DNA of 64,000 nucleotides from assembly GCA_031213475.1 (NCBI GenBank), contig JARUPZ010000007.1, positions 3,653,586 to 3,717,585 on the forward strand. The letters run 5' to 3'. This document shows positions 4,210 through 56,544 of this stretch, in pieces. The notes beneath the pieces are model-generated. The model did not search any database. It worked only from the letters and a program-made list of their open reading frames with translations, and had not been told where the DNA came from. How positions within the stretch are numbered: the stretch's first letter is position 1; each line of letters begins with the position of its first letter. Made by a program: the position numbers and the translations under genes. Source of the DNA: Nereocystis luetkeana (lineage: Eukaryota > Sar > Phaeophyceae > Laminariales > Laminariaceae).

Positions 4210-6656
4210 TAACATTGAAGTGGAGGGGGGGGTCGGGGCGCTATTAAATTATCTTTTTTTCTGAGTCAACCATGTTTTGCCCGCCTTCTCTCTTCAGAAG
4301 AAAAAAGCAAGACCGAGGGTACGAGATTGTTGCGGCGCACTACGCACGGAAGGCCAGTCAGCGCCCACGTCAACATCGCATCATCGCAACACTACCGAAT
4401 GTCTAATACAGTACTAGAAAGCCGATATTGATACATACACATACAACTCATGTATGTGCATATAGCCGCGCACGATCGGACCCAAACACGCTTTCAACGT
4501 ATTCACATGTACCTGGAAAAGCAGAAAAACTAAAAAGCCAATAGCAGAACACGATTTCCCTCTCGCCCTCGTTCAGTCGGGTAACCGTTTAACTGGTGCC
4601 AAAATCATCCCACAAGAAAAAAAATACAAGTGGTCTGTCCCCACAAACTTGGGTGCACGCTGATACATATGCGCATATATCATATATGTCGACATCGGTA
4701 TCGATGGGGATAAAGACATCAATATCGGTTTGACATCGACATCGATTTGGCATCGGCATCGTTTTTTTTTATTTCGACAGCAAGGTACACCTTTTTTGCA
4801 CCGCAACATGCGGGTACTTGCTTTCTGATGTGTGTGTTGCTCGCATTAAACCGTTTTTTTGACTCATGAAGCAAATCCAGCGCCCGTGCTGGTTCACCAT
4901 CCTAGAGAGAGACAATCTCGGTGGCGCCTGTGGCCTGTGCCAGGCACGAAAACATACCGGAACTTCCAAATGTGTAAATATGTGAAGTAGAGCGCGTAAA
5001 ATCATATTGCGTGACACGCGCTGAAATGGTGGCATTTCCTCAAACCGCTCCAACTGCTTTTAAAGCACAAAGCATGCACTCTGTGAAAGAGTTTCGTATT
5101 CATTGGGTGTGCCTCGAGATACATGTATCACACAAACACCAGCAAAGTTCTAACAGACACACCTGACCGACGCATAGTGAAGACAGCAACACACTAGAGC
5201 AGGCGCACCAGATATAAACAACATCGAGCAGGATCAGTGCAGCAGCAGCAGCAGTTGTCGGCGGTGGTATAAAATACCCGGGGTATGAACGTACAGCAAA
5301 AGTAGTACAGCAGCTCGTATACTTGCATGAATATATCGGGAATACATGCCTGGTACTCGATGGTACGGCATGACACAACTATTAATAACAACTACCAGGT
5401 ACAGATTTAATGTGAAGAACACACACACAGGTACAAGTACCTGGTATATGCTCACCTATACTCGTACACAACGCTTACCTGGATGCCAAACGTCTCAGTT
5501 CTCGACGAGGCAAGTTCTCTCCGAGCTTGGGCAGTTGCGGCGGAATATCGGTGTCATCCCCCCTTGAGCTGTAGGGCAGGGGCCAACACGGGACACGCGA
5601 TGCACCGGGCGGGGTGGGGCGGGTTCGGCAACAGGGACACATTGTTTCGTGTACATCTACGATTCATGCCGGGTAGAAGTAATACCAGGTATATGATACG
5701 CACATGGGTACGTGTTGAAGAATGTGGTACCAGGTACGTATCGTATCAGTTGTCTGTAAAAAATTACCGGTATTTTTTCAGGCATTCTTGGCTATTTTTA
5801 GGTGCCTGGTATAGAGCAGTAGATTACGTTACGTCCTGCAGTGCTTCGTCCATGATTATGTATGGTGGTACGGTTGGGGGAAGAAGAACATAACAGCAGT
5901 TCACATGGTTGATGAAACCGAAACTCCAGACACCATGACGAATCACGATCCAGAAGAACTTAAATCACTGGCTGTATAAGATCATGGATACATAGCACGT
6001 ATAATATTAATGCCAATACCTGATGGTAAAAATAGTACGCGAATACTTCCAATACCGCTGTTGCTGTACCATACATACTTGGTTGTGCTGTGTGTACAAC
6101 ACTATACGTATTATAGGAGCGCGCAGCACATATCTTGGCCAGTACCGGTAAAATTCGGAAGGGTTGAAATTAGTTAAGAGTTGAAGAGATGACTGAGGCC
6201 AACATACCCAAGAAAACCAAGGACTGCTTGTTGTACTTGTACCTTGTACCACAGCGTCAGCTGTCTGCTGTACAAGAAGACATTTACCAGTTACCCGTAT
6301 TGTTGTACTTCGTATGACGAAGTATATAGCTATCATAGCCGCTGTACAGAGTACTCGTATTAATAGTTGCACTGCTGTCTACTCTGTATGCTGTATGTGA
6401 CCGCACTACTTGTATCTCTGTCAGGTGAAGAATGAGCACGGGCACTGAGGGTGCTGGATGTCGACGAGCAAAAAAACGGTGTGATGTCGATAACACACAC
6501 AAATGCATTTGCGATGGAAACTATATAAATGCATCTCGTAGTTTGTGCCCACAGAGCTTGTACGATCTCTCAAGGACGAAGAATCAGCGCTGAGACGGGA
6601 TGGATACCTGGTATTATATTACATGCTCCGTGTCGACTGGTGGAAAAAACGGTTCC
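4210..6656. other. Non-coding stretch
   Basis: No gene recognised. It holds inverted and direct R2 fragments (about 4838-4906, 5405-5435, 6425-6505, 6581-6655), a degenerate GACATCGATATC array at 4690-4765, and many TACCAGGTA, TACTGCTGTA and TATTAATA words. Confidence 0.45.
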
Positions 6657-6744: not shown

Positions 6745-8029
6745 AAGAACATACACGCAATCACGCACAAACTCGTCCCATCGCGCCATGAGGTATACTA
6801 TGAGTGTTAACAGCAGGCAAGGGGAAAAAAAAATAAGGGGCATCGACCGACCAACGCACCTCCATACACCCCCGCGCGAGGTCGAGCGACCCTGCACTCC
6901 CGCACTCTCGTGTGAGCCTCTTTCCTCTGCTCTGCTGTACGAACGTCTGCTTGTTATTTCTTGCCAATCACTGCTCTGCAATCTGCGAAGAATAATCTGT
7001 TTCTTGCTACTGCCACTCCGCTTATTATGGTCTGCTAAGTAATAAATAATGCTCTGGTTTTCATGAAATCGTTAGCTTGCTGCACCGGGCACCGCGATTC
7101 ATTCGCCCCTGTGCTGGTGCTGGTGCTGGTGTTGATGCCAGTGCCGCTGCTGGTGTCTTTTCTGGTGGCTTAATAGCTTCTTAAATATGTACCAGGTACA
7201 TACCGATCGCAATATGGCTCATTCCTTCTGTCTGTTTGCTGTGCCTTGTACTTGCCATAATTAAAAACACTTCTATTTAGCGTCTGTGCGAGCAGCGAAG
7301 GCATGCACGTACCGGGGAGGGGGGGCAGGGAGTACACCTGTTGCCACGGCTTGTCCAGGAGGCTGCTGAGGATGAAACCTCCTACAGCAGTATGTACGAG
7401 TTAGATAAGCTGAAAACTGAGAGTGATGGTTTAGAAAAACAAAAAAAAATAGGACGGAAAAGTTCCTAAAACGAGGTTCGGGAGAGCCCCTCCGCACGGA
7501 TAAGGGGCCCAGAACCAGAACAGCATGCAGCAATATTGGATAATCGTTTTTATATTCCACGTACATCGATAGGTGACATCATTCGTATGTATATGATACA
7601 GCGATAGTATCGGACTGGTCACAATACAGCCCAGTGGTTGGGATCGAAGGGCAGAACGGGACAGACTGGGGACATTATCTATCGATAGACATCACACCGT
7701 ATCTCCACGATATCTCATTTTTCGATTTTACAAAATCCCCCATGTTTTTTTATTTCCTCGCTCGATTTATTTCGATGACCAGAGTTAGAAAATAGAATTT
7801 AACCGAGACGCAGCGGAACAGAATAATCAGTTTCTCTGCGCGCGCCCGACCAAGGGCTAAACCTTCCGTTTTTACGTGTGTGGGTGTATATGTATCTACT
7901 GCTGCTGTCTACCACGGCGGTGGCGTATGTAGGTGGGCGTGTGGCTGAAGCAATACGGCTGCTGCTGTCAACCCGACAAAACCACCACACTATCTAATAC
8001 CTGGTACCTGGTACGTAAACATAAGCTTA
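6745..8029. other. Non-coding stretch
   Basis: No gene recognised. Low-complexity patches include a GGTGCTGGTGCTGGTGTTG run near 7115-7160. Confidence 0.4.
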
Positions 8030-10258: not shown

Positions 10259-11510
10259 TAATACTGCTGAATTTAACCTGGTGGTGGGTACGCATGTGTT
10301 TAGGCCTGTACACGCAGCAACCAGTTGAATACCGGGTACGCCGGAGTATATGATACTCGGCGGTAGCGCGGTGGAATCGTTCTTTATCAAGGATCGCAGT
10401 TACCTGTGGCTGAACATGTTACCCAACCCAAACCGGTCACATGCCAAAACCGGAAAACCCTGTTACTACCGCAAGTTACCTACTGGCATAAAACAGGGAA
10501 TATACAATATCCTCCGGGGGATTGATAAAAGCCATCCCCTTGTTAAAAACGCCTTCAAAAAGGGAAAAAGTGCTCCATTTGTCTTGTTTCATTGCCTTGT
10601 ACCGGACTTTATACTGGTACTTGAACAGTACGGCTGTACAGTTTACAAGCAGTAGTGCTGCAGTACTACTGCTGTTACGAATTACAGGAGGAAAGTATGT
10701 TGCACTTGCCAGCTGGTATTTTACACTGGTACCTATCAGGTATTGGATGCTGTACAGCTGGGTGACGATATGGCGCAGATATTTTCTGCGTTCAAAAAAA
10801 TCAAATAAATGGCTTGTACTGTTGTACGCCTCGCAATATCGTGAAGTAACGTCAACGTGGCCCCGTGCTCCCTCCACAGCAGTAGTCAGTGCGCTACTTT
10901 CGTTCGTGCTGCTGCTGTGAATTAAAAAAATAGGGGGTTCCAATATGTATATACCAGGTAGGCGTTATTTACCCGGGGATAGGGGATACAAATAGGTACC
11001 TGAGGCTTTTATGTTACCTACGTACCGCTGACATGTGTGTTACCGCAAAGTCACCGGCAGCCCCTGTGTCAAGTACAAGATGGAGCTGGCTGCCCGGAAA
11101 CGCAAGGAACATTTGTTTTTCATATAATATGAATATCCAAATGATCTTCACATTTACAGACAGGATTTTATTATACCAGGTACAAAGTACCAGAGGTAAG
11201 GACGATGCAGACGCATAACTATTGCTCGTACCTGTAATAGACTTTGTGCAAGTATCGTACAAGCACATTATTAATAGTACCAGGTATGTACTACTTTGTA
11301 AAATTTCGAGTCGTAGTCAGAATCAAATGTGCTTTCAAGTGGCGAACATGAAGGATACCTCATGGAAGGGGATACATACTCTGTAATACATACGATGTAC
11401 CAGGTAAGTGATACGATACTTGCCGGGATATGCTCCTACGGTTTTGGGGTCCATCGTGGGTTCTGACTACACACAGCAGTACTTGTAGTATCCGTGTACC
11501 AGGTAAAACG
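10259..11510. other. Non-coding stretch
   Basis: No gene recognised. A 101-codon + frame at 10350-10655 has no recognisable motif. TACCAGGTA, TACTGCTGTA and GTACGTAC words are frequent. Confidence 0.45.
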
Positions 11511-11765: not shown

Positions 11766-13650
11766 GTCACACGGTAGGTACTACTCGTACCATCGTATTA
11801 GTTATTGATACTATTAATACAAACAGTTGTAATACATCGGCTCCCGTGGTGAGTAATAATGCTGTATCGATGGAGCCTAAATGAGCTCTATCGTAGCAAG
11901 AGACTATCGTATATTGTTCCACTATATTTGGTGTCCGCTGATCTTTCCCCCCCGGGCGCGTGTCACAACGATAATGGCAGCGCGCAGTTATGACTGCGGT
12001 GGCTACGACGTGTCACTCCCACGCCCACGACATGGCATGTATGACAAAAACGATATAACATGATTAAAGTACCAGGTACCTGGTATGAATCTACTGGTAC
12101 GGCGAGCATGAACTGCACTCGTTCATCATGGCTATTCGGATGATATGTACGTACATCAGGCGTGTGTATGTTCTGTTTTTCGTATCCAGCACGTACGTCG
12201 GCATTGCGTTGTCAATTCCCCTCATTTTACAATATTACATACCAGGTACCAGGTACCGTCCAGGTACGAGTACGAAGTTAGTTGCTCTTGTTTCTGTCTC
12301 GCAGTTTGTGAACACGTAAGTTGTACGAGTACATACTGCTGTTGCTGTTTGTGTCTCCCTCCGAGATTTCGCCCCTACTCGTACCTCGTGAAGTGAAGAA
12401 TCAACACAGACATGGGTATCGAGTGTCGAGGATCGATGGAAAGGCCGGTACTACTACTACAGCAGTTGTAGAAAATAGTAAAAAATAGAAGAAAAAAGTA
12501 GTACCAGGTACGAGTATACGCATTTATATTAAGGCCGGGCGTGTCGTGTCGTGGCAAGATGTCCTCCCCCGCCACTGCTGTCACAGGGGGGTGACCTCCG
12601 CCATCAACTAACCAGCCCACGAGCAGACGCACCATGCTGCTGTCGCCGTGCGGCCCCCAACCCCATCCACCCCAACACCATTTCTCAACCTATCATGCCT
12701 ACTCTGAAGCGTTTCTTAGCGATTTTCCGTTTTTTTTTTTTCGTGTGGCATGTTGCACCATCCGCACAGGTGCACAACCAGCAAACGATGATTATTCGCC
12801 GTGCGAAATACGACCTCGAAAAGTAGAAACGGAGAAGAAACCGAACGCGCTTGCCGATCGCGCATCGAAAGCGTCGGGGTCGGGTACATGGTACACGTCT
12901 GGGGTAAGTATAAGCTGTTTGGTACAAACCCACCGAATAATCTATCGGAAACTATAAACTGCTGTTGTTGTTGCTGCTGCTGCTGTTGTCGCGAGGAACG
13001 TCGGAACGTTACGCCAGCGAGCGAGCGGTAGAGATTGGAGGAGGAAGAAGGAAGCGCCGTTTGATTCCAATCCGAAAAGCTCCCTCGACAACTTCCAACT
13101 CTTGCGACCGGACCCTACACGTAAACCCCTGACCACTGCTGTAATACACTGATTGCTGCTTGCTGCAACACACCTGTTTAAATCAGCCCCAAAATTGACG
13201 TGGATTCCGCCCCTCGCTGTCAGCTCTCGGTCGTATCTCCATCCTGCAGTCGATTGCCTCGTGTTGGTCGTCTGGGGGTTGTTGTTCGGGGCAGCGGCGG
13301 AGGCTTGCGATTGATCGGCGTTTTGGTTGCCCGTCGCGACTCGCAGGGACAGCGAGCGTCGCAGCGACCCACGTTTCATGCTGCAGGGCTTTGTCGGCGT
13401 ATTGCTGCAGTATAAACTCCCCTCTGGCACGTCTGCGAGGGCCGACGTACACAGGTGAGGCTCCGACCAAAACACGCACAGCAGGACAGAAGAAGAAGAC
13501 AAGAAGACACACAGAACCTGGGTGAAAATCTATAACAATGTCAAAGTTGTCCCGCATAAACATGCAGTTCATGTTGTGGAACACCTTTGCGCGAACGTCC
13601 ACACGTCCACCCACCGTAGACCGTAGACCTAGACAGCGGTAGAGAACAAA
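11766..13650. other. Upstream region of the aminopeptidase gene
   Basis: Up to about 12500 it is repeat-rich DNA. From about 12540 it becomes GC-richer and unique. Minus-strand frames of 186 codons (12942-13502) and 169 codons (13183-13692) overlap each other in different frames and match nothing I recognise; they may be chance frames in a promoter or 5' leader. No clear TATA box was seen close to 13651. Confidence 0.4.
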
Positions 13651-20784: not shown

Positions 20785-23700
20785 TTGTTGCTGTTGTTGC
20801 TGTTGTTTCCAGCCTGTTTTTCATGATGACGGGAAACGTGTACTTCAGAGAAACCAGCTATAATATAAGATCATCACCATCATCATCACCATCGTCGTCA
20901 TAATTGCACTATTAATATTTATAGTGTCAAGTTGGGATTTTTTTAACTACAATGCGTGCTGTAAGCGGTTCGGGGCTTTTTTTAGTACGCTATTAATAGT
21001 TTGGATTTTTACATTTACTACACTATTATTTGTGCATCTAAACTGCCCTTGCATACTACGTAATTCTGGACATTTATTGATAGACTATTAATAGACTGCA
21101 GCAGTACGAAGGCATTCAGACGAGTATTAATACTATTACGGGGGACCATAGTTAATAGGACCAAATATTGTTAGTAGAAGTTGTTAAATATATAGGTTTT
21201 TATGTGCACCGTAGGTCCTATTAACTATGGTTCCCCGTAATAGCGTCAACACCATTTTTAGAACTCGTGTGGTGCGGGCTCGACTCGCGCCTGTCAACCG
21301 TACCGCTCCACAAACAGCAGACGAGCTCCAACAGAGTCTTCAAGCCATATTTTTGTTTTCTGCCTTTCGCTCTACAGTACCAGGTATTCATTATACTCGT
21401 ACCTGGTTGCTTCTTTCGAGGCAAACGCCTCTTTCTGGGGGCGACGCCACCAGCCACCTTGCCACAGAACGAACATGAAATGAGTTTTTACAGTACGTAC
21501 GTGGCAGCACTCACGGAAGTGGAGAGTTATAACAATTTTTGCTCACATTTTGCACGAAAAATTGAGATGATCGGTTTATTTCTTTTTTAATTCGAAATTT
21601 TGGTGTAAGACACACCCCGCCTCGCTTACAGATAATTTCAACCTGGTGAAAAAAACAGATCCCTCTGTTCCTAAATATAAGGAGCGTTTGGAGTCAACAT
21701 TGATATAAAAGCGTTCCCTATATTCAGGGTCAGAGTGTTGGTTTCTTATTAATCCTTTTAGAACCGCAGTCCCGTTTTGGGGGCAAACCACTCAAATTCC
21801 AAGTGATTTGTCCCCAAAACGGGACTGCAGTACTGAAAGGGTTCAAGCGGTGTCGCGTACTGGCGTATATACTAGGTATCGGTGTACCACTCCGGCCGGA
21901 AATATAGTCACCCTTTGCAGTCTGGTGTGAGTATCAAACGGGATGGTTTCCCCGGCAGGAGTGACCACCATGTGGGGGAGTGCACTCATTACATCATGCA
22001 TGGGCGTTAGTCGTATGACCATAGACCCTCGCGTGCCTACAATACCGGGACGGAGCACGTCGGGTTTTTCACCGAACAGGCAGATATCGCTAGGACCAAG
22101 CTTGCGAAGCTCCGCGAGGGATCCGGCGAGTCGCATGAAGGGTAAACTGCATCACCTGCTAAGAACCGCTTATGAGGCGGGCCTTCTTGCACATGGAGAT
22201 AGCAGCATCGAATGAACTGATTTTGTTTTTCGGTGTGACCACTTCCAGAGAGAGCAATGAGGTTACTACGTAGCTGCCTCGTCGGTGCCTTACCATAAAC
22301 ACTACTGTACGTGATGCGACCATTCCCCTTGTGCAGAGTTAAGGGTCTCCACCCCACAAGAATCTAAATCGACCGCCAACCCCCCCCCAAGAAAAACACG
22401 GTACTCTGGTTGTCTAGCCCACACAGTGAGCGGAATGTTTTACGGTGTCGTTGCCAACCGACGCCAACCCGACCTATATGTTTAAGGGGGGGGGGGGGAA
22501 TACATGTGAGATTTGAGTTGAAGGCGTCGGCCGTACCATATTAGAATATATTTCCAACACTTTTTCTTGTGCTATTACGGGGGACCATAGTAAATAGGAC
22601 CAAATATTCTTAGTAAAAATAGCGAAATATATAGGTTTTTATGTGTACCGTAGGTCCTATTAACTATGGCCCCCCGTAATAGTAGTAGTTGTAGGCAAAT
22701 ATACATAATTCCAAGTAGTTTGTCCGCACAACGTTTTTTCTCGGCAACGGGGTTATAACGTCACAAACCTTTGTCGAGGGGTTAATTAAGGGGTTGTAAA
22801 CCAACCTTTTTATCAGCCTTTTTTGCAACTTCTTTACAACAAGGTCACAGGGAGGAGCCCCCCCCCCCCTCCCCCTCCTCCCCCCCCCGCCCCCTCACCA
22901 CGCCTCCACCACCCCCACCCCCGCGTACGTACGTTCGTACGTGTGAATTGTATTTTGTAACTTTTTTTCCGACTTTTTCCTCATAAAAACAAAATCACAG
23001 CCCCCCCTCCTCCCCTTCCCCCCCCCCCCCAACCCCGCGCGTAGGTGTGTACGCGTGAGTGGTGCCTACATTAATTTTAATTTTGTAACCCTATTGTCAC
23101 TGCAAAACAATGCTACACTAAGTCCAGGTAGTTTGTCCCCAAGGTGCAGCTATATAATGGGTTACTTCACCACTGATCTCACTGATCCCCCGCCGCGTTC
23201 CTCCGAAATATCAACCCGAAGGGCTTTCACGGAGACAACTGCGCGACGGTCGGGGTGGGCACGATCGATGCTGCCTCACAGCGCCTCATGGACGCCACCC
23301 AGGTATTTTAAAACCCTTTTTCTACGCCATGAATACTGCAAAAATGTCCCGAGTCTAGTTCCAAGCTACATGCTCTCCGAAGTATTATCTTCTATGGAGT
23401 TGGAAAGGGATGAAGACTTTTTTGCTGCTGAGGTGGCGAGGTGTGCGTGTCTTTCCCCCAGCAGGGAAGACGGCGGGCTGCTTTGTTCTTAAGATCTGGG
23501 GGAGTTGGGAGGGGAGCGCTAGAGGTCGTATGGCGGGCAAGACACGCTGGGACCTCGAAAAATTTGCGACATATTGCACGTACCATTGTTGTGCTGTATT
23601 TCTACAGCGGTTCCACTCTGTTCGGGCATGGAAGGACTGTTCTGGATGTTAATAAAAGTATCAAAACGGCCCTTACATTTCCGGAAAGATTTGTCCAGGT

Positions 23701-26700
23701 TACGGTGTTAAAAATAATCGCACACACTTATATATGGTGTCGAACCCGAGCGCAGCATTTTGGGCTGGAACGCTCGGGGCGCGCTTGCTGTCCTTTTGTT
23801 GTGTGTTTCGAGCCCTTGCGGAGCTTTACACCAAGTGTGCATGTCGTAGCAAGCGCGAATCCAGAGCGTTTCATACTAGAAATAAGTGAAACGACCTATT
23901 GAAACATTTTCGTTCCTTTGCCATATTTTTTTCCAACTCCGATTTCAAGTAATTTGCCCATAACAAACGCGAGTGCAACTCTAAAAGAGTCATCAGACGC
24001 TGGCAGACCCTCCGCCACCAAAGCGGGGCGCAATCATTGTCCGTCCCTGGAACGATGCCAGCCCTCAGCGCGCTTCCAATCCGCTCCCGTTTTATTTCGA
24101 CGAGCAGGAGGCAATGATGGAGGGCGTGTCCGTGTGTCGGCCCGGCGCCTGCCTGACGGAGATCGGGAGCGCGATCCATGCGGTCGCCGACCAGTACGGT
24201 TTCGACACGGTGCGAAAGTGAGAGCGCAATTCACAACAACAACAACAACAACAACAACGACGACGACGACAACGAAAAAACAATACAACAAAAAAACGGA
24301 ACTCTGACAACAACGAGGCCTCTTTCTGTTGCTGGCGTACAACTCCATCGTAGATAGCTCCGTATTTGCTGTAGCTGTAGCTGTAGCTGTAGCTGTAGCT
24401 GTAGCTGGGCCTGTGCTAGATGTAGCTGTAGATGTAGCCGCATGTGTATCTCTAGCTCTAGCCGGGCCTGTGGATACAGCAGTACCTCTCTCGATGGCCG
24501 TCTTCGAAAGCTCACCTACGAGCACAGGAGGAGCAGCACCACACCAAATCTTTCGCTGTGTCGCCCTTCGCAGCACGCGAAAAGCCGCGCCCCCGCTGAA
24601 CGCAGAAACAAGAGTTCACTTGCAATATGCACCCCGCCTGTCAACCCGACCACACACCCCATCCCCAGAGTCCCCGCGGTCGACATCGCCTCTTGCACCA
24701 CGCGGATTCCCCTTCAGTAAAACGCAGAGTTTGGAGTTCGCTTGCGCAATGTGTATGGTGTATGTATCCCGCCTGTCAGCCCGACCACCCGCCCCGTCGT
24801 GCTCCGGGTCCTCGCGCTCGACATCGCCTCTCGCAGCACGCGGAAACCCTCGCCGTAGAGCACGGAGTTGCGTGCTTTCGGTTGCATTTTATTCCCCGCC
24901 TGTCGCAAAAACGACCCGCCCCATCGTGCTCGGTTTCCCCACACGCCTGGCGCCGCCCGCATTAACATCGTGCTCGAAAATGGACCTTCTCTCTTTTTCG
25001 TCTCCGGGGAAGGTACTGCGGGCACGGAGTGGGATCGAGCTTCCACATGCTGCCCTTCGTCGAGCACTTCCGCAACAAGGTGGGGGGTTCGTGCAGAGGG
25101 GGAGAGGAGTGCACTTGATAGCATCTATGGCCGTAGCCGAGGGGGGGGGGAAGGGGGGGGGGGGGGGTATGAAAGGGGAATAGGGCAACGTGGCGGAGGC
25201 TATGGCCGGTCGCTTGGTTTGCCTGCGGTGCTATCCTGGAACAGGTCCGCATCCCTTTTTTGTAAGCGGCTCGAAGGGCTCCAGCTCGGGTGGTGTGGTA
25301 CGCGGCAGAGATTGCCGCCTTCCTGGTCGTCGGCGCCTGCGACCTCGTTGGGTGTGGCACAGCATGCCGCGATCAGCCGATCTGCGAGAAATATTCCCTC
25401 CCAACGAAACGAGACGAAAAGGACGGCCTTTTCCGTCCGTTGTGCTGTTGTTTTCGCGAGGCCAATGGAAGCTAACACCTCGTGCTGACGGTAGGATAAC
25501 ACGAGGGCGAGGGCGGGACGTGTGGCCACCTCGATTTGTGACGGTTCCAACCAAACCCATGCGTGGTCTGTCCTTCAGACAAGAGTGTGCAAGCTCGGAA
25601 CCGATCACCCACCTCCCGAAAGAACAAGCAATCGTCTTTACTCGACAAGGTGTTAATAGTTCATCTTCTATTGCGGGGGACCATAGTAAATAGGACCTAC
25701 GGTACTCCCAAAAACCTATATATTTACCTGTTTTTACTAACAATATTTGGTGTTATTTACTATGGTTCCCCGTAATAAGGATATCAAGTTGTGTGAAATA
25801 CCAGGTACACATTTTTTTGCCTTTTCATTTCTATACTCGTAGTATCGGGTCTTCTGGCTCATGAACGAGATGAGATACCGCCCAAGAAATATCTGAATCG
25901 ACTCTATAAGTTGAAGTGTATGGCAACATGTTTTTTCAGATATGATTCCAGGTATGGTATACCGCAAGTATACCAGGTGTGTACTATTCATATTGGTACT
26001 TTATGTTTCTGGTTTTGGCATCCCGGTTAGTTTCACACCAGGTACTCGAATTGAAAACGTTTCGTTAAGAAAAACACTACCGTGTAGGGAAAATGAAGCA
26101 AACCCTCCCTAGAACTCTTCCAGACTTATCAAATATTCGGCGTATACGTTTCGTTGTTTGGCATTACGTAGAAACGTCAAGCCTGCGATGTACCTGGAGA
26201 CCTCATACTTTGTTCCGTATTTTTCATATTTTTCCGTCTAATTTTGCTATTTTATGCGAGTACCCGAAGTAGATTTCAATTGAACCTTATGCTGGTACCA
26301 GCTACCTTATCATTGTTCACAAGGAGTGAAAGGGTAGAGAGCGCGGGCTTTCACCTACTATATATAAACGAATACTATGTTATTTTAACGATTTTCATTG
26401 ATGTACTATTACGGGGGACCATAGTAAATACCAGGTAGGACCTATGGTGCACACAAAGACCTACCCTGGTATATATTTACCTAATTCCTGGAACAATATT
26501 TGGTCCTTTATACTATGGTCCCTCGTAACAACCACCTCTTGGCCAGGGGTACGGTCTCTATGGATGTTACATGGCCACCTTTACATTGACACCCCTTAGT
26601 ATCATCAATACGGAAAACTCTGGCATCTGTTTTTGAAGCTGCTACGGCTGCACCCCTCCCCGCCCCTACCTCCCTCCCTCCCGGCTCTCTCTCTCCATGT

Positions 26701-26907: not shown

Positions 26908-29281
26908 CGCCGTCGTTGCTGCCGCCACCGCCGCCGATGCCCTACCGGACCTAGGACCCGTTCTACGATAGAGGTAGCACATTTCCGCTATTTTGTTCCT
27001 GAAAGACGGGGTTCCTTGAGCTCGTCGGAATGCCAATCTTGACTTCGAAAAAAAACGTTTTGTAGACTTGGGCCATGGGATTATTCGCCGCGATGCATTT
27101 AGATTTTTACTGGAGTCAGTTTTCGGAGGAGGTATGGAGCTCCTTAAGTGAGGAGCCTCAGAAAAATTAGGGTGAAGCTCTATCGTAGAACGCCTCCTAG
27201 ACGCTGCTCTTTCTGTGGTTTTTTCCTTTGGCCTTTGGCTTTTTCTGTTTTTTTCGTTGGGGCTTTTCCGCGGAAGGGGGTGTTGTTGCCATACATGTGT
27301 CACTGTCGCTGGAGGTGGTGTTGGTGTTGGTGTTGTTTCTTTTAGAATGTTCGACTTTTTTGTTTTAAGGTCTTGAAGGTTTTGTGCGGTGCAAGTTGAC
27401 GACTGACGTCGTCCGCATCTTGTAAGCTTCTCGCCACTGCGGTGACGTTTCGGGGACATACCACTTGGAAATAGAGTTCGACGTTTTCTGCAGTGAGGGA
27501 TGGGGTTCGTCTGCATGTCTTTGTTGAGTTTGCTCGCTAGGAGCCTCCCGCCGCAGGATACCAGGTAGCAGTTACGCCCATGAATGATGAGGAGATATGT
27601 ACATGGCGTGCGCCGCGTTTTCCGTCACTCCTATCTGAATTTAGTTTTTTTTTATTAAAATCTGAATAATAGAGACACAAGTTAGAGTGGCGAGATACAT
27701 ATGATAGGAGTATCATTTGCCCGACTCCTTTTTTTCTAACCGAGTTTGGTGCCAACAAATCATCTTTTGGCTTTCACAGGGTGGAGATTCAGTCGTTTTG
27801 GTCGCGAGACTCGTGGCGAGACACCCCCAGACGTGGCTGCCAGCAGCGATTGCCGCACAGCAGTATTTTTTGCTTTTTTCGTCAAGCATCACCGTTGTTG
27901 GTGATGTTGGTTGGGTGAAGGTTGTTAACCTCTTTTGCAACTACACCCACGTGTAGGGGGACGAGCTATTACGGGGGACCATAGTTAATAGGACCAAATA
28001 TTGTTGGAAAAAATAGCGAAATGTATAGGTTTTTGTGTGTACCGTAGGTCCTATTAACTATGGTCCCCCGTAATAGTTGATATTTGAGTCGTACGGTTGT
28101 TTCGCGGCACTACTGTAATATTAATAATATTTATATGAATAGTAGTCGTAAAAGAGGAGTGATCGTGCAAGGGGTCAGCATCGCTGAAACACGCCCGCCC
28201 ACAGGCAGCGCACTTACTTGAGAGATACATTTTGGGCGTGTATTGAGCAAGGTAGCTTTAGTTTGTGTCGTGACAGACAGGCAGAGAGGCAAAAGCGCGG
28301 CTGTGCGCGATGTTCCCAGCAGCAAGCATCCGCATCCTTTTTTATCCGCCTGTTTGGCGTTGGTGTCACGTTATGTTGGCTCATATACCACCCATCCCAG
28401 CACTGCAGAGGCGTGGGTTACCAACAGACAGAGGAAGCGGATGTAGCACCAAATGTCGAGTAGAAGCTTCAATTTCACAGTGTTGCACGCGGGGAGAAAT
28501 TACCAATGCCGAACAGAGGTCATGATTGATTGAGTATCGCCGTACGAGCACGAAACACGACAAGTTGACAATACTGTACACTTGAACAAGTTGATCCTTA
28601 CTGCCGTACAGAAGCTGACACTGCCGCACAATCTTGAGCAATTCAGCTCCTCGGGGGGGTGCCGCAACATTAGCTCCGAGCTGTTCCGCCACGTATGGCA
28701 TGCTCCACATGTACACGTAGATGCATAAACCGTTTTCCTTTCGCTGGCCACCTTTCGTTTTTTGGGCTACGAGTATATCTTCAATATTTCAACGGCTGGT
28801 GAAGGCTGATGGGCCTAGTTTTTTTTCCTGCTGCACAAAATATCATCCGATTTGTACCTTGCGTCACCCCACGTCAGGACACCTCCGAAGCGAAACTTTG
28901 TATGCACTCGTAGGGATATTTTAGTCTACGCTGCTACGAGGTATGTGGTCGTCAGGGGATATCCGGGATACATCCCCGGGTTTCCTACAGTAGGTGTATA
29001 CGGATCTTGGGGTGTTATTGACGGATGGATGTTGCTACTTGCTGAAGAACTACAGCACATACAGTAACATTACAGCTTTACGTGACGGGAAAAGGCGCGG
29101 TGGCGCGGGCATTATTGTTTTCCACAACCCAAACCAACAGAAAACAGGGCCAATAAAAACGGTTGTCGTGCCGTTATTCCCCCAGTGTACGCCTTTTGGT
29201 TTTGGTTGGGCGGTCGCACGACGCACTTTCGAGTTCGCTAATAATATCCAGGTCCTGGAGCACCAGTAAAAGTTGCTATTA
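26908..29281. other. Intergenic stretch after the aminopeptidase gene
   Basis: No gene recognised. A 228-codon minus-strand frame (26830-27516) overlaps the last exon and is basic and proline-rich without known motifs. One MITE-1 (27972-28070) is present. Confidence 0.45.
27972..28070. mobile_element. MITE-1 copy k, 99 bp
   Basis: Full copy with TA on both sides (27970-27971, 28071-28072). Confidence 0.92.
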
Positions 29282-37200: not shown

Positions 37201-40200
37201 GCTAGGTCAAGACTGAGGAACTCCCGAATTTCAAATTGAAATCAGAAAAATCCCACGAAAAAAGACCCAAAAGACTTTTCACTCAAATTCAAATTTTCTA
37301 GTTTGCCTGCTTGGTTGTTCACTCTTCGGGCAATCAGATGGAAATTAAATTAGAAAAAAAAAAAAAAATGAAAAAAAATAAGAGTCCTCGATAAGATGGG
37401 CCCTTACGGATTGATTACTCAGCGGGGACGTCACTTGGTGGTCACTGGGCAGTTGCTCGACGGGTTCTCGGTGGTTGCTGTGCAGTTTACTCGACGGCGA
37501 CAGGCGATCACTTGTGTACTTCTCGGCCGCCACCCAGGGTTTTCTCGACGTCTACTCGATTGTTCCGCGTGAAGCGCGGAGAAGCCGCAAGCCGCCCCCA
37601 TCCACGCGCCTCGCAAACCCGATATTGTTTTGTTCCCGAAGGTCCTCCCTGAGTATTTGTTTCACCACATGTCGGCGACTGACACCGTGGCCAGGCTTCG
37701 CACAACGTAATGAGTCGTGCACTTTTGGTTTCGAGAATGGATGGAAGGACCTGACAGGTTTACCTTGGGTCCACATCCTATTACGGGGGACGATAGTATA
37801 TACCAGGTACCTGGTAGGACCTACGGTGCACACAAAAACCTATATATTTGCCCATTTTTTCTCACAATATTTGGTCATTTTTACTAATAATATTTGGTCC
37901 TATTTACTATGATCCCCCGTGGTATTGCAATCGCGCGTTGAGTCGACCACCCCGCCACCGCCTCTTAGGGCACCAACTCCCCCCTTTCCTCCCCCCCCCC
38001 CCCTATCCATTCCGTTCCGTCAACGAACCAACCAACCAACCACCACTAAACACTGAGCAAGCATCGGCAATCAATACTCAACAATTATTACCCCTTGTCC
38101 GAGCTTCAACAATCAATATTCAGCCACAATCACCTACAATCACCACTCAGCAACGGACGACCAACAATCGGCAATCAATCCATCAACAATCACTTGTCAA
38201 CCATGAACCATCAACGAGTAAGCCACCAACAACTGCCGGTATAAATTAACAACCAACAAATCAACCATGCGAAACCGACCATCAGTATCATTGGAAACCA
38301 AGAGTCACTATTAATAATCAGTAGTCAGCAATCATTCAAACATCAACAATCAACAACAAAACTATTCCGTTTTCTATGACGACCCCCTCTGCACACAGGG
38401 CACCGATGGCGAAAGCGACGCGGACCCAGAAGACGCCCTCCGTCTCGCTACCAGGGCAGGCGGCCCCGGAGAAGGGATGGGAATGCTCGGATCGGCAGCG
38501 GATGTACCGTTAGACCCTCGCAGGTACGAACGGAGGGACGGACGGATGGATGAATGCACGAGTCGGGCAGACCATGATCCCAGATCAGATCTCCATTTTA
38601 ATAGCCTACATCTCTTGGGGCAGATGTAGGTCTGATTTCCTTGAGGTGTGAGTCGGCACGACTTAAACCACCAACTAGTTTCGAGTCGGACCACTGTGAT
38701 TTTTATTGTTAGTCGTTTCCCGGGTGTGCCGACTATCTTCGACACCGTGGGTTTCCATACTTGAACAAAGGAGGGTTAAAATTCGGGATACCGTTTTTTT
38801 TGTTGGGGGGGGATCGGGGCCCCCTCCGCCTGGGAGGGCTGATTTGGCTAGCTTCGCATCCCGGACTTGAGCCGGCAAGTCGGCTGGCCATTAGCTGGCT
38901 TTTGCATGTCGAAAAGGCTTTGTATTCTGCCGGTTTCGCGTCTTCGTTCGAAATCTACCGTAGGCGTGGGCGCTGACACCGTAGGAGTGTTTCCCGACAG
39001 ATTTCCCCGATTGGTAACTGGAAAACCCCATCGCCCCCCCCTACCCCCCCCCCCCCCCACACCTCGCTACCTCAAGATTAGCCTTGCATGAAACGTCCCG
39101 CATTTTTCTTCTTGAATAAGGCCTCGCATGAAACGTCAATATTCAATTTGTACCGCCTCCTCCTCCCCCGCCCCCCCCCCCCCTCGAAAATACGCTTTTT
39201 TGGTGCGACCGAGAGCGCGCGCGCGGCAAAACCGTCAGTTGTGTTGCGTCTCGTTTGAGCTCCCTCCCATTCATCGATCCATCCATCCACCCGCCCACCC
39301 AGCCACCTACGAGTACCCACCCACGCAATCACGCACCCACTCCCGACGAACCACCCACACCCACCGACCCATACCCCTACCCTACCCCTGCTCCCCCCCC
39401 CCCTCCTCCTATAATTGGCCCTGCCTTCGTCCGCTTCGACCAGGCCCGACCACGACGACCGTGACCGACGATGGCGGGGGGGTCGGGGACGGCTCGGGGT
39501 CAGCATGGGCATCATGGCCAGGGGCGGGGGGGGGTACGGCGGGGGAGGAGGCGGTGGCGGTGGTGGTGGGTCTGCCGGAGATATTTCGGACTGGGAGAGA
39601 CGCCGCATGAGAGGTCGGGGGCGGCGAGGAGACTTGGACTTGGACGAGTTCGACAGGGGTTACGGCCGTGGGAGGTGCGGAGTGGGGAGAGAGGGGAAGG
39701 GTAGGGGGGGCGGGGAAGGATGGAAGAGGCGGGGGAGGGGGCAGGAGGAAGGGAAGCGGGGGAGGGAGGGGGGATCGATGGTGAAATTCTGCTTTGTTGT
39801 TGTGTACGGTTCCGCGGGCATGTGGCTGTAGTTTTTTGTTTGGAGAGGGGGGGGGGGGGGGGATGAGGGTTGGGGTGTACTCGACATCATGCATGGTCGT
39901 AGTCGTATGAACATAGAACCTCGCATCACTACAATGCCGGGGCGGAGCATGTCGGGTTTTCACCGACCAGGCAGTCATTGCTTGCACTAACCGCGAAGCG
40001 CCGTTAGGTGTTGGGCGAGTCGCATGCAGGGTGAGCTGCATCCTACTAAGAGCCGCTAGTGAGGCGAACTTGCATATGGACGACAGCTTCAACGAGTTAA
40101 TTTAATTTCCGGTGTCGCCACTTCCGGAGGCAGTAGTGGGGATGTTATGTAGTTGCCTTTTGGGTGCCTTACCATAAACACTACGTGATACGACAAGTCC

Positions 40201-43200
40201 CCTTGTGCGGAGTAAAGGTTCTCCTCCCCGCACAATTTATCTAACCCGATCGCCAGCTGTGACCGACCGCAAAAAAAACAACGGCACCCTAGTTGTCTAG
40301 CGCACGTATTGAGCGGCATGTTTTGCATCGGGGTTGCCAACTGACGCGAACCAAATCTATGTATAACATACATGGGGGGGGGGGAGGCTGGGCTTGCTTT
40401 TTGTGTACCTGGTACCCTGCACGCTGCACGCGCGTACGTGTACGTAGTTTTTTTTTATAAGTAGCACTTTGCTCCAATTTTCATTCCGATTCCAGTCCGT
40501 CTCGTTCTATCCCGTTCCGATCCGATCTGTTCTGTTTCGTCCCGCGTCTCTGCTACCGCCTCCCGTTCATACAAGGGTTTCTAGAAGGCAGAAAGGGCGC
40601 AGTCCAAGCCCCGGGGATGGGGGTGTGGCGCGGAGCCTTAGCCGAAGCATCAGCAGGGACAGGCGATCGAGGTAATTTTTTTACTGATATTTTGAACGCA
40701 GATCATACTGTCTTGGTTGATGAAACCGTGAGCAGACGAAAACGTCCCCTGACATATGACGAAATACAGGGCGAAAGGGCCAGTCAGTGGATGAAACGGA
40801 CATCGCATGAAAACTGAAAACGGGCATCGAACAAACCCGTCAATAGACGAAGCTGCTATAATAGCGGATGAAAAGCTGAAAGCAGCATAGGATGAAATCA
40901 GTATACTCGTAGGACGAGCCGGTAGAGGGCGAGACTGTCAGTGAATGAAACTGACGTCTCGCATGAAACTGTCAGCTGGCAGCGGATGAGACCAACGTGA
41001 AACGAAACCGTCGGCGGACGAATCAGCATCGGACGAAACAATCTAAGGACGGAACCGATATTAGACTAAACTGGCGGCGGACGAAACCGTCGCCGCATGA
41101 AACCGGCGGCAGGCTATTTCGACACCGGACGAAACCACCAACGAATTAAACCGATATCGGACGAAGTCGTCGCAGGGCTAAATCTCCAACCCCCCTACAA
41201 GCGAAACCGTCAACAAGCGAAGCTGCCGGTGGGCGAAACCGTCGGCGTCGGCGGGCGAAACCGCCAACGGGTGACACCGTCGTCGGGTGAAACGATCGGC
41301 GAGAAAAAGCGCTAGCGGGCGCAACCATCGGCCGGTGAAGCCACCAACGGGCGAAACCGTCGATGGGCGAAACCATCGATGGGCGAAACCGTCGGCGGAC
41401 AAAACCGTCAGCGATCCAAATCGCAAACGGACGAAATCGTTGGTGGGCCAAACCGTCAGCGGGCGAAACCGTCGACGGGCGAAACTGTTGGCGGGCTGTT
41501 GGCGGGCGAAACCGTGAGCGGGCGAAGCTGTCGGTAGGCGAAACCGTAGGCGGATGAAACCGTACGCCGACGATATCGACATCGGATGAAACCACCAACG
41601 GACGAAACCGATATCAGACGAGAACGTCATTGGGCAAACCCGTCGGCGGGCGAAACCGTCAGCGGGCGAAATCGATTTGGGACGAAACCATGAACGGACG
41701 AAAACAATATCAGATGAACCCGTTGACGGACGAAATCGTCATCAGGCGAAACCGTCAACAAACGAAACCGTCAACAGGCGCAACCGTCAACAGGCGAAAC
41801 CGTTTATAGGCGAAACCGTCAACAGGCGAAACCGCCAACTGACGACACCGTCGGCGGTTGAAACCGTTGGCGGGATGAAACCGACATCGGATGAAACCGC
41901 CAATGGACGAAGTCGATATCAGACGACAACATCGTCGGGAGAAACCGTCGGCGCACGAGACCGTTGTCAGGCGAAACGGTCGGCGGGCTGAACCGTAAAC
42001 GGGCGAAATTGACATCGGACGAAACCATGAACGAACGAAACGATATCAGACGAAACCGTCGACGGACGAAATCGTCAACGGGCGTAACCGCCAACAGACG
42101 AAACACCAACGGGCGAAACCGTCAACAGGCGAAGCCGTCGGTGGACGAAACCGTCGGCGGGTGAAACCGTCGGCGGGTGAAACCGTCGGCGGGTGAAGCC
42201 GTCGACGGGCGAAACGCCAACGGACGAAACCCTCGGCGTGTGAACCGTCGGCGGGTAAAAATGTTGGTGGGTGATACGGTCAGCCAGTGAAACCGTTGGC
42301 GGGTGACGCGGGTAAAACCGTCGGTAGATAAAATCGTCAGCGGGAGAAACCGTCGGCGGGCATAGCTGCCAACGAATGAAACTAGTATCAGACGAAGCCG
42401 CCATCAGGCGAAACCGTCAAGAAGTGAAACCGTCAATGGCCGAAACCGTCGGTGGGCGTAGCCATCGGCAGGCGAAACGCCAACGCACGAAACCGCCGCC
42501 AAACCGCTGCCCGACGGCTCCGCCTCACTCCCCGGCACAGACCAGAAGTACTCTTCATAGTTGTTTGCGTCAATCCCCTCTCTGCTGGCATGCCTCGTCA
42601 GTCGTTAATCGTAAACGCAGTGCTCACCATGTTTTCCCTTTTGTTTCTTTTCGCTCGGTGCGGAGTGGGATCATTCCTGACTTCTTCGTGTTTTTTCTGC
42701 GATTGCAAGGTATTATCACGTCTACCCAAGTAGCCTAGCATTTTTCGTTTCTGCAGTATGTCCCAAGTACCAGGCCCCCGGAAAAAGGCGTTCCCCCTTT
42801 TTTCCATTACTTTTGTTTGGTTTGGTTGTAGGTTGACTGTTTTGCACTTGTTGCGTCACATACCTGAACGTCTTTTTGAGACGTGGCATACCAACAAAAA
42901 ACAACCGAAACCCTCGAAAATGCGTATCCCGAGAAAACGAAGCGAAAATCTCGAGGAAGTCGAGAGTTGCGCCTGGTTTCGCCACATGGAATCCCGAGGT
43001 CCTCGTTGCTCTTCGTAGCGATTAAAGATGCGTCAGAATGGCTGTGCTTCGTGTCACAGGTATCATGCTGTCATCACCGAGGCCCTCGCGGCCGTTGTCG
43101 GCGTTGTTATTAGCAAGTCACATTCGCCAAGCACGACGTACGGCGGAGGAACCGGCACAAAACTCCAACGGGAGAGTTTCCTGACACGCCACACGCTACC

Positions 43201-46200
43201 ACGCGGCTCGGTTGCACCCCCCCCCCCCACCCCTAACCCTCGTCACGACGACACCCATCCACATCCCAAGTCACTGTCTCCGCTCGCGAACAACCCGCCT
43301 CCTTGCGCACAGCAATGCGGGCCGGGGCGGGGCTTAGCAAGCGCTTTAGGTTGACGGTTAAGGGTGTTCGGTGGTTCGGTGAGGGGCTGCTTTCAACAAG
43401 CGCGTGGTATTCTGGGTTGCAGCAGAGCAGGGAGCACAAGATGCTGCAGCATGCTGTCTTCAAACTCCTATTCAATCTAACCAAACCTGATACTCCTAGA
43501 CCTTCGCTGCTCTAGTTGCATCGGTGATAGAGCTCGTTCCCGTGAAGTGGGCCTCGAGAGCTACGCTGTATGAGCTGTATGCCTGCCCGCGGCAAGTCAG
43601 GTGGAGACGAACCCCCGAAACGATGCTGCTTGTTTGTGTCTGTAGCTTTTTTTCCGGGGTGCTGTTTTTCTTTTCACGATGCATGGATTCGTACACAGCA
43701 GTACTGTACGTGTACAGTCTGGTACACAGCAGTACTGTACGAAGAGCGACGAAGGTCGAAGGCGCGAGCGAACCGAGCGATGTCGGGAGGGGGATAGAGC
43801 GACGTCGGGAGAGGGAACGGGTGGGTATCGGCAGCTGACCCAGAGGCGGTCGACGCGAGCGAGCGCAGCTACGGTCCGATCGAACGAAGCGCGTAGCATC
43901 GCCCTTCAGCTCGCTTTTTTCAAGTTCGTTGTGCCCCGTGGGTTTTCCATATCACTAGCATTTCGTAAAAACAAATGGGGCAGAAACCTCAAACAAATAC
44001 CGGTCGTACGTATGTACGAATGGATACGAAAAGTGCCCATGTACGTACTTGCAGTACCATTGTTTTTGTCTTTCTTCCGTTTTTTTTTCTCGTGTTTTCT
44101 TTCCATTTCTTCATTTTTTTTACAACAAGTACGAAAAAGTTTTTTTAGAAAAAAAGTTCCATTTTGACACCCCAAATACCTGAACCTCTCCTCTCCTCTC
44201 CTCTCCTCACTCTCTTGTAGGCTTGTTTCTTTTTGTGAGGTACCTTGTTATTGGTTCTCTCTTTGCTCTGCATTATTACTATATACCTGGTACTTGTGTT
44301 ATTTTTGTGTTTTTTCCTATGCCTCTGCTGCTGCTATTGCTTAGGAGCAAGACCGATGAGGCTGTCCCCTGTCCCCTGTGCTGCACTACTTCGTTGGACC
44401 GGTTGAATCCGTTGGATTCGTTGGATCCTTTGACTGCTTGAACAGGCGGAGTAGTCGAAGCCGAAGCCGCAGCCCTAGCTGTCGGAGGAGCAGGAGCCGG
44501 GACAAGGCTGTTTCCAGGTGTGTATGGTACGGTGGGTGGGTGGGGGGAGGCAGAGTAGATAAATTACAAAATACCAGGCACTAGGGAATAAGCGCCCCCC
44601 CCGTCCCCACGGCGGTAGGGCCACAGTGAAGGAAGTAGTTCTGAAGCGAATGTGAGAAGGCTTGGAATAAATTGAATGAACAGGCCTGAGAAACCGTTTG
44701 AAGGACACGTTATTTGGGGGGCAGAGACTGGTATATACCTGGTACTGCTGTACTGTAGGAGTAAATATGGGCGATACCAAAATATAACCGGTGTACGCGT
44801 GGCAGAAACCATGTTTGACGACAAAACTATATATAGATATAAATATTCCTGTCCTACCTACTGTAATAAGGGAAGGGGGTCTCCGTTCCCCCCCCCATCC
44901 GCGTTCTTTCATTTCCCGACCAAAGCATGCTTCGGTTGCGTCATAAGTAATGTTTCATGCCGCCAGAGGCCTGGACCAACGAGATGCCTGTTTATTAGAA
45001 TGGTTCCTTAATTTCAGCTCGAAATTGCGCTATTAATATTACCAGGTATATTATACAGCAGTATTAATAGTACTTGTTCCAACCAGATCACACACGGAAT
45101 AGTTGAGCCGAGAAGGCGATCTCTGGTAACCTTGCCCTACAGCATCCTGGCAGCAGCGGAGAGTGCGAGTGTGGTCGGCGTCCTTGTGTATGACTGTTGT
45201 GAACGTTTCGTGCTTTTTGGTGGCCCGTGAGAAAAATTTTTGACCATCGCCTGTGATAGAATCGAATTACACGAGCCATGTTTCGGCCCTCTCCGGCCTC
45301 CGGAAGTATATATACTAACAGATGAAATACTGCGAGTATAGTATACCTGGTAGTACTTTAAGAAGCGTGCCAATGAGGTTGTGAGACAGATGCCTTGAGG
45401 TGATCAAACTCCTAACTGCAATAAGCTACTGCGTTGGCGGTTCTTCTATCGGACAAATATGTTGTATTTCGTACGTGTTGAGCTTGGCCAGTTTGGGAGC
45501 ATACGTCACGCCCCCCATTCCCATCAATCTTGTAGTTTCCCCGTTAGAACTGCTCCCACGTTTTTTGGGGGGAAATACTTCAAATTAGTATGGGACAGAA
45601 AGAGACACGTAAGATTGCCATCATAGGCCAATAACATCAACAACAGACACCAACAGCGCAACGATTATTGATGCACATACACCTTAATAAGTCAAGGTAC
45701 TTGGAATTAGTATGGGACAGCAAGAGCACGCGTAGTATTCCCACACCCTAGTCTAGGCCGACAACGACAACACCGCAGTATTAATAGTACTCCAAAAAAA
45801 GGGCATACGTAAATAATGACAGCGGAGAGATTTCTGGACGATTTTACATTTTTTTCAAAATTATTTTGTTGGTCTCAGTACAACCTCTGAAGCATACCCC
45901 CTGCCTGGTCTCCAAAAAGGATAGTGGGTTATCGGATATTTTTACCTGAGTTTGTTGAGGCCAATGCTTTCAGTTAACCCTATAATTATGCCAAAGTCTT
46001 CGGATATCTCTTTAGTGGTTAGGCGATACGCGTCAGCGCAGAAAAAAATTACCTGGTACTAGGTACGTACCAGTTAGATTTCGAAAACGACAACGACAGC
46101 AAGGCTTGAACAACAACGGCATTTGCATGCCCATCGCCATCGCCACCACCACCAGCAACAACCTTCTGCTGCTGCTGCTGGTCAGCTGGGGGTGGTGATG

Positions 46201-56400: not shown

Positions 56401-56544
56401 TACCAGGTATCAGGTACTGGTATATAGTAATAATGCGAGTGGTACATGTGATTGATAGACGGTATTTTTTCACTCATCATGATGCCGACGGTGGACACTC
56501 AAAGCTACGTGCACATGTACGTACCACTCTGTCCCTGAATAAAA

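Follow-up and report, generated by a model that had tools for sequence, protein, structure and literature searches.

Sleeping Beauty, one of the closest described systems to the one treated here, has the footprint TAC(A/T)GTA. Its cuts are staggered and leave 3-base 3' overhangs (PMC7827188; published work is cited here and below from excerpts of the sources). In grasses, the mariner-like Stowaway/Osmar5 system leaves short end fragments between TA duplications, and the TA of an old footprint can be hit again (PMC1925063). The footprints of Passer, of the pogo superfamily, measure 0–4 bp (PMC9976928) and those of ZB 0–3 bp (PMC7913693), and cuts in the superfamily are described as falling two to three bases inside (PMC2170065). 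Here we analyzed a window of 64,000 nt from Nereocystis luetkeana (GenBank assembly GCA_031213475.1, contig JARUPZ010000007.1; G000:C7:3653586-3717585 in our numbering), taken from an assembly of 465,085,209 bases in 1,987 contigs, in which the word CCWGG (W is A or T) recurs between TA dinucleotides. We interpret the inserts, CCWGG+TA added at a TA (7 bp, hereafter scars), as excision scars of a TA-targeting cut-and-paste transposon, with a probability of about 0.88.

Like the Sleeping Beauty footprint, such a scar would place end bases of the element, complementary to themselves except at the centre, between two copies of the TA. It differs in having five bases where Sleeping Beauty has three, for which a longer stagger is assumed, and in that the Sleeping Beauty footprint comes from an assay whereas around 182,000 inherited sites are found here. 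Stowaway/Osmar5 footprints varied, with 1–4 bp of the ends, whereas here one word prevails; their precedent nevertheless shows that footprints are heritable and that their TA is hit again, which supports the kind of event proposed and means that it is not new in principle (PMC1925063). Cut-and-paste transposition with small footprints is also the likeness to Passer and ZB.

The TA-CCWGG-TA word and its empty sites

The word TACCWGGTA occurs 50 times in the window, compared with a mean of 0.52 in 100 shuffles (largest value 4). When two TA-flanked families of miniature inverted-repeat transposable elements (MITE-1 and MITE-2), tandem arrays and larger repeats were hidden before the word scan (the masked window), 41 occurrences remained against 0.63 expected, making it the top D-X-D word of the scan, while the control TACCSGGTA was found once (0.62 expected). 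It was again the strongest TA-word-TA in a 264-kb sample made up of the window and 20 further 10-kb stretches (including 2,500 bases of N), with 119 occurrences. Across the genome (465 Mb) we counted 182,395, compared with 1,744 for the reversed pattern, an enrichment of around 100-fold, and tandem double scars numbered 15,917 against 2. Chance or composition as the source of the word is rejected by the shuffles, the masked scan and the TACCSGGTA control.

The initial annotation had described micro-insertions of CCAGG or CCTGG at TAs inside MITE-1 copies. Its reading of the letters between 26412 and 26525 was correct (TACCAGGTA at 26429-26437 and TACCCTGGTA at 26462-26471), and the units that it named near 2635, 37784, 61318 and 61670 are present at 2678, 37801-37816, 61390-61419 and 61728. 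The micro-insertions are therefore real, but they are not limited to MITE-1: the 50 units in the window form 44 clusters, the longest a run of 2 units, and only 6 of the 44 lie in MITE-1 copies, so that framing was too narrow. As had been anticipated, the masked scan, the TACCSGGTA control and the indels between repeat copies all tie the CCWGG word to TA. Among 16 distinct 7-bp insertion events between repeat copies in the 264-kb sample, 6 had the TA-Y-TA form, and 5 of these 6 were CCWGG (4 of the 5 in MITE-1).

MITE-1 is TA-flanked, has the ends TTACGGGGG (TTAC..GTAA) and is abundant, its exact 19-base ends occurring 25,365 times in the genome; copies diverge from the consensus by a mean of 10.2% (39 copies), and MITE-1 insertions against empty sites were seen in two sampled loci (L021 and L022). 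The length of 99 bp first given to it is the distance between inner TAs, insert-free copies listed being 109 bp with both flanking TAs and 105 bp between them. The copies align closely, and CCWGG+TA units vary among them at three TAs, namely site A (AAA-TA-GGACC), site B (GACC-TA-CGG) and site C (AACC-TA-TATAT), with 6 of 40 copies in the 264-kb sample bearing such units. Most other MITE-1 copies are without the CCAGG scar found at 26429-26437 (site A). The copy at 37784 does carry the double insert, together with a 23-bp tandem duplication, and those at 61310 and 61667 carry their inserts but are rearranged beyond a single insertion. Another repeat provided a filled and empty CCWGG pair at L027:831.

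Site C was counted with the word left open, as any N5 between two TAs in the MITE-1 context genome-wide. It was filled at 532 + 550 = 1,082 places and empty at 4,221 + 4,241 = 8,462 (around 11% filled); 94 of the first 100 inserts listed were CCWGG and the other 6 differed from it by one base. At a second MITE-1 TA, chosen cold (48th percentile), any N5 was found at 69 + 60 = 129 places and the empty state at 12,201 + 12,265 = 24,466 (around 0.5% filled). Here 82 of the first 100 inserts listed were CCWGG and 18 were other; of the latter, 7 read TTTAC, from duplication of the 7 bp TATTTAC, and 4 resemble it. Compared with the empty sites, then, the word has been inserted at a TA with duplication of that TA, and because the empty state is in the majority at both counted TAs, gain of CCWGG+TA is a simpler history than loss, in line with the earlier view that CCAGGTA is not ancestral to MITE-1. 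Since these scars sit inside MITE-1 copies, they are younger than the copies that hold them.

The scars and related features of the window are given below; the CCWGG scar rows rest on matching of the TACCWGGTA pattern, and the strand of scars and inserts is given as '.'.

26407..26528 (+) MITE-1 copy of the initial annotation, terminal inverted repeat TTACGGGGGACCATAG, upstream of a weak match to methionine aminopeptidase type 1 (MetAP1) at ~26.7 kb
26429..26437 (.) CCAGG scar, MITE-1 site A
26462..26471 (.) variant scar TACCCTGGTA, MITE-1 site C
2678..2686 (.) CCTGG scar, MITE-1 site C
2706..2713 (.) TTAA word in MITE-1, read as a scar
37801..37816 (.) double scar CCAGG-TA-CCTGG, MITE-1 site A
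61390..61398 (.) CCAGG scar, MITE-1 site B
61404..61419 (.) double scar, MITE-1 site A
61728..61736 (.) CCTGG scar, MITE-1 site C
316..324 (.) CCWGG scar
5393..5401 (.) CCWGG scar
5438..5446 (.) CCWGG scar
5683..5691 (.) CCWGG scar
5728..5736 (.) CCWGG scar
6605..6613 (.) CCWGG scar
7190..7198 (.) CCWGG scar
7998..8013 (.) double CCWGG scar
10952..10960 (.) CCWGG scar
11174..11182 (.) CCWGG scar
11278..11286 (.) CCWGG scar
11398..11406 (.) CCWGG scar
11497..11505 (.) CCWGG scar
12070..12085 (.) double CCWGG scar
12240..12255 (.) double CCWGG scar
12502..12510 (.) CCWGG scar, TA in common with a CGAG word
21378..21386 (.) CCWGG scar, TA in common with a CAG word
22303..22309 (.) CTG insert (TACTGTA) within a ~500-bp repeat family; three aligned copies have the empty site
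25799..25807 (.) CCWGG scar
27559..27567 (.) CCWGG scar
40406..40414 (.) CCWGG scar
44284..44292 (.) CCWGG scar
44736..44744 (.) CCWGG scar chained with CTGCTG and CTG words
45040..45048 (.) CCWGG scar
45344..45352 (.) CCWGG scar
46050..46058 (.) CCWGG scar
46218..46226 (.) CCWGG scar
50698..50713 (.) double CCWGG scar
51669..51677 (.) CCWGG scar
54200..54208 (.) CCWGG scar
56091..56099 (.) CCWGG scar
56401..56409 (.) CCWGG scar adjoining a copy of a third family, MITE-3
56555..56563 (.) CCWGG scar within a MITE-3 related tandem
56918..56926 (.) CCWGG scar
57688..57696 (.) CCWGG scar
57921..57929 (.) CCWGG scar chained with CTGCTG and CTG words
62026..62034 (.) CCWGG scar, duplicated segment
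62077..62085 (.) CCWGG scar, duplicated segment
62288..62296 (.) CCWGG scar

Target preference and other TA-bounded words

A second TA lies exactly five bases outward from the scar at 31 of 88 window flanks (15 left, 16 right). Outside repeats this holds for 22 of 70 flanks, compared with 6.7% for clean TAs (P 6e-10), and none of 20,000 AT-matched draws reached 22/70; in 20 fresh loci, 10-kb stretches outside the window used to replicate the preference, it holds for 40 of 132 compared with 6.3% (P 2e-17). Of the 220 flanks in total, 111 have T[AT] at +6/+7 (background 12.4%) and 169 a Y at +1 (background 59%), giving the symmetric preference WA-N4-R-TA-Y-N4-TW. Regional AT or TA richness is rejected as the cause of the flank signal by the AT-matched draws and clean TA-N5-TA controls; a cruder control, in which scar flanks and MITE-1 were still included, was less significant (P 8e-5). 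With a matrix built from non-MITE-1 sites, the hit MITE-1 TAs C, A and B fall at the 98th, 93.5th and 89.5th percentile of all TAs, respectively, and rank 1, 4 and 5 among the 16 scored in MITE-1. The fill rate of the top-ranked TA, site C (11%), exceeds that of the 48th-percentile TA (0.5%) by around 22-fold, a rough figure from two TAs counted with patterns of unequal strictness. Such a preference points to a transposase, as slippage and motif conservation do not predict site choice of this kind. Together, the link to TA, the empty majority, the ~100-fold enrichment and the target preference support the proposal made in the initial annotation, that a TA-targeting transposon, itself unseen, left these scars on excision.

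After TACCWGGTA, TA-TTAA-TA ranked highest in the masked window (25 compared with 0.32 expected). The window holds 30 TTAA words (TATTAATA), for example at 683, 863, 2048, 2706, 6358 and 11269, and 182 four-base inserts of any sequence were counted at one MITE-1 TA, 81 of the first 100 listed being TTAA. TTAA words have flanks that agree with the target preference of MITE-1 itself (0/20,000 bootstraps), and the flanks of CCWGG (P 0.24), CTCG (P 0.06), CAGCAG (P 0.31) and CWG (P 0.48) words do not. TTA overhangs left by MITE-1 would pair over TA to give a TTAA product, and we read the TTAA words as excision scars of MITE-1.

TA-CTCG/CGAG-TA (TACTCGTA/TACGAGTA) was found 21 times in the window against 2.8 expected, for example at 418, 1256, 5459, 6352 and 9571, with a CGAG insert facing an empty paralogue at L029:587; an origin from a 4-base overhang would fit. 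A CTG insert stands at window position 22303 against empty paralogues, and a CAA insert at 49385; the corresponding TA in L020 holds TTAA. These inserts belong to a ~500-bp repeat family whose members are 74–97% alike (21970-22497, 39863-40384, 49220-49726, 58310-58944 and 60386-60592) and carry the CTG and CAA (TTAA in L020) inserts at common TAs. Since CTG, CAA and CGAG inserts stand against empty paralogues, in addition to the TTAA words, scars of several TA transposons seem to have been kept in this genome. CAGCAG words were rejected as scars and left out of the count because they are enriched also without TA flanks. The 8-mer ACAGCAGT (/ACTGCTGT), present at 44 places in the window, is likewise ~16- to 18-fold enriched both at TA and elsewhere.

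Candidate parents and rival explanations

The pogo-type transposase domain DDE_1 had 28 matches in the genome. We read 12 of them with 1.5 kb of sequence to either side and extended the five best to 9 kb. Terminal repeats at TA surround the domain in two of these five (L044 and L045). L045 (G000:C2:6447062-6453191) spans 6.1 kb and has 26-bp terminal repeats, with the ends TACCAGGTGCCTGTCAATACATACCGGA / TACCAGGTTCCTCTCATTAAATACCTGA, both of which start CCAGG at TA; the ends are alike at 23 of 28 bases including the TA, and the similarity stops beyond. It contains a frame of 331 aa without stops that matches DDE_1 (3.4e-23) and HTH_Tnp_Tc5 (1.1e-4). Its ends are the only pair to reach at least 20/26 among 85,897 TA-anchored inverted pairs 1–9 kb apart in the locus; in 20 sampled loci 142 of 2,165,299 pairs did so, and most of the 25 listed were in L014, a locus with several MITE-1 copies and other inverted duplicates. 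Ends in CCAGG are what a 5-base overhang needs to yield CCWGG, namely four pairs and an A:A centre. CCAGG stands at both ends of L045 (a single copy) and TTAA fits the ends of MITE-1, but no scar was found for MITE-2 in the forms tried (below), and we lean modestly towards the family of L045 as the parent of the CCWGG scars.

Two other DDE_1 elements resemble it in having terminal repeats of ~26 bases at TA, as in pogo/Tc5-type elements. L044:4152-6763 is 2.6 kb long and has a DDE_1 and HTH_Tnp_Tc5 frame; its 26-bp terminal repeats at TA (CAGTGGGGGGCCCTATATAGTGCAGG) are perfect and run for 28 bases without mismatch (TACAGTGGGGGGCCCTATATAGTGCAGG). L040 has a third kind of ends, CAGTACCGGCCAGCTAGTAAG. 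L045 departs from this type in starting CCAGG, not CAG, and in being single and decayed. A 5-base scar of the L044 type, CASTG, was rejected (2 compared with 4.3 expected). The search with the L045 end pattern returned 343 places; among the first 100 listed, judged by eye, a double scar opens ~37, and 23 lie in one tandem array on contig C29. There, TACCAGGCACCTCTCACTAAATAGC recurs 23 times at ~33-kb spacing over some 720 kb (G000:C29:785088-1507595), resembling a very long tandem array. Single ends resembling those of L045 (L047-L049) were set aside, being alike over 25–27 bases only, which may be chance. The repeat at 59654/61505, which begins TACCAGGAAC in both copies, was rejected as a terminus since those letters lie inside a longer inverted duplicate.

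A different parent would be MITE-3, a diverged TA-flanked MITE of ~83 bp with ends CCACTCTGT.. and like CCACTCTGTCCGGAAATATAAGG, present in 19 copies in the 264-kb sample, including the following and others.

958-1040 MITE-3 copy
18730-18811 MITE-3 copy
53860-53942 MITE-3 copy
56319-56402 MITE-3 copy

Three-base CCA overhangs joined through a one-base A:A overlap would give CC(A/T)GG, and clean left ends of MITE-3 do begin CCA or CCG at TA. A CCAGG scar adjoins two of 14 clean ends; when these are counted the flanks stand above background (P 0.004), but the eight clean window flanks without a scar-adjoining end do not differ from it (P 0.13). By eye, MITE-3 copies look more diverged than those of MITE-1, yet CCWGG scars lie inside MITE-1; moreover, a one-base mismatched overlap is unlikely to yield so uniform a product, and the product expected without overlap, TACCATGGTA, is rare (1 compared with 0.06 expected). 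We therefore regard MITE-3 as an unlikely parent. Programmed or near-quantitative excision, as of the internal eliminated sequences (IES) of ciliates, would account for common scars with near-absent elements and has a precedent in TA-bounded germline elements cut by domesticated transposases (PMC9942856); the 264-kb sample indeed holds 119 scars and no parent was seen in it. We hold this to be improbable, as the scars are decayed and sit inside heritable MITE-1 copies, as old fixed events would, and ordinary cut-and-paste with excision far exceeding point mutation also gives an excess of scars.

Two explanations would dispense with a transposon, and both appear very improbable. Spread of a 7-bp microsatellite or motif through slippage would be in keeping with the 15,917 tandem doubles and the excess of same-centre doubles (40 of 59 listed). 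However, with two units as the longest run in the window there is no tandem array of the unit, the units are mostly single (44 clusters for 50 units) and set in unrelated DNA, and slippage does not make single TA units, mix CCAGG with CCTGG or predict a symmetric flank preference. Selection on a conserved regulatory or chromatin motif, the least probable of the explanations considered, would suit a 9-bp near-palindrome of very high copy number, but MITE-1 copies with the empty site show the word to be inserted, it decays (126 one-mismatch forms compared with 64.9 expected) and the outward TW at +6/+7 belongs to the flanks, outside the word.

Several observations weigh against excision by a TA-targeting transposon, or against L045 as its representative. 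The enriched word, from word-open counts, is of 5 bp, compared with 0–4 bp for published Tc1/mariner-pogo footprints (PMC7913693, PMC9976928). The scars predicted for MITE-2 and family 4 (ACSGT, ACCGGT, ACGT and ACWGT) number 0 in the masked window, and the CWG scars expected from the CAG ends of L044 are weakly enriched (83 compared with 61.7 in the 264-kb sample; 25 compared with 9.7 in the masked window). In the MITE-1 copies that we read, the TAs placed second and third by the matrix carried no insert. An element with CCWGG ends was seen neither in the window nor in the 264-kb sample. The initial annotation had pointed to a Tc1/mariner-type element with CCA or CCT ends at TA; a CCAGG-ended candidate was indeed found, but its frame is pogo-type, and a first look at the genome, with 30 candidates scored, gave 0 matches to the Tc1-type domain DDE_3 at E 0.001. 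L045 was itself chosen for its CCAGG start among the 12 of 28 DDE_1 surroundings read, its end pattern at 0–1 mismatch recovers only its own two ends genome-wide, 5 of the 28 bases are unlike between these ends, and the target preference is seen on only one side of the element. Among 59 of the 15,917 doubles, those listed on the plus strand, 40 have the same centre and 19 are mixed (P 0.009), an excess which implies that some doubles are probably duplications rather than repeat hits. Descent of the N5 inserts from a few scar-bearing MITE-1 founders is a further concern, and the centre at site C is skewed to A (63 CCAGG:31 CCTGG among those listed, P 0.001; 47:35 at the cold TA, P 0.22). The A:T ratio at site C is, however, equal in two MITE-1 backgrounds (35:17 with ATAAAAA and 28:14 with ACAAAAA, first 100 listed), and scars occur at several TAs, which argues against few founders.

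The window itself has a GC content of ~50% and is eukaryotic in content. Neither tRNA nor Rfam families were detected in it, and a partial Pfam scan (five ~5-kb chunks in six frames and ten single frames) found no transposase. Pieces of a MetAP1 gene lie within 17603-26865, with a clear match at 17.6 kb and weak matches under the Pfam cut-off at ~24.1 kb and 26.7–26.9 kb; if the pieces form one gene, the MITE-1 copy at 26407-26528 is intronic, before the last of them. A degenerate tandem array of ~1.1 kb with a 16-bp unit resembling CGTCGACGGGCGAAAC occupies 41246-42360. The scar search had no match in phage sequences; in viral contigs it matched 9 loci, each consisting of the searched double and at most one further unit, and the MITE-1 pattern had 0 matches there.

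Proposed route of excision and its meaning for the genome

The best stepwise explanation, which we consider likely as a whole, is that one scar is the repair trace of one transposon jump. An element would enter a TA within WA-N4-R-TA-Y-N4-TW, the preference seen in the flanks, and the TA would be duplicated. On exit, staggered cuts, presumably of five bases, would leave the terminal CCAGG on both broken ends, which could pair over four bp around one A:A or T:T mismatch. Repair of that mismatch to CCAGG or CCTGG, the source of the variable centre suggested in the initial annotation, would set the centre and produce TA-CCWGG-TA (TACCAGGTA / TACCTGGTA), the form in which the sites are found. The new TA of the scar, with another TA seven bases off, would again be a preferred target, which would help to explain tandem doubles and is consistent with the statistics.

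The scars would then be inherited and decay slowly; with 126 one-mismatch forms alongside 119 exact ones in the 264-kb sample, we read the decay as roughly 5–6% per base. Scars would build up to (copies x excision rate)/(9 x mutation rate), so that with excision per copy much faster than mutation of the 9-bp word, scars would outnumber elements even at low copy number. Assuming a mutation rate of ~1e-9 and an excision rate of ~1e-5 to 1e-4, tens of copies would suffice for ~2e5 scars. A bolder picture, which we offer tentatively and hold to be doubtful, is of a pogo-type lineage with a 5-base stagger, known almost only by ~180,000 fixed scars against one or a handful of elements and, in its boldest form, excised near-quantitatively or under host control.

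No title on a TA-CCWGG-TA scar was found in a literature search, which does not establish that it is unpublished. New here are the scale, the 5-bp word, the excess of scars over any element seen, the target preference as measured, the internal yardstick given by MITE-1 and TTAA, and a pogo-type element as candidate parent. Cut-and-paste transposons are usually tallied by their surviving copies. A 9-bp scar, TAs included, is long enough to stand out from chance, and past jumps can be tallied from it instead; scar count, decay and target preference are then readable in the absence of the element. The scan used here (enriched TA-word-TA, paralogous empty sites and flank preference) is applicable to any assembly, and the stagger rule, by which ends anneal and the mismatch sets the centre, leads to testable predictions for each element family. 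If excision outpaces point mutation, one of the main insertion mutagens of a genome may have been a transposon that is extinct or low in copy number, and if the lineage is indeed one of scars only, the genome would be a countable, site-resolved record of its jumps.

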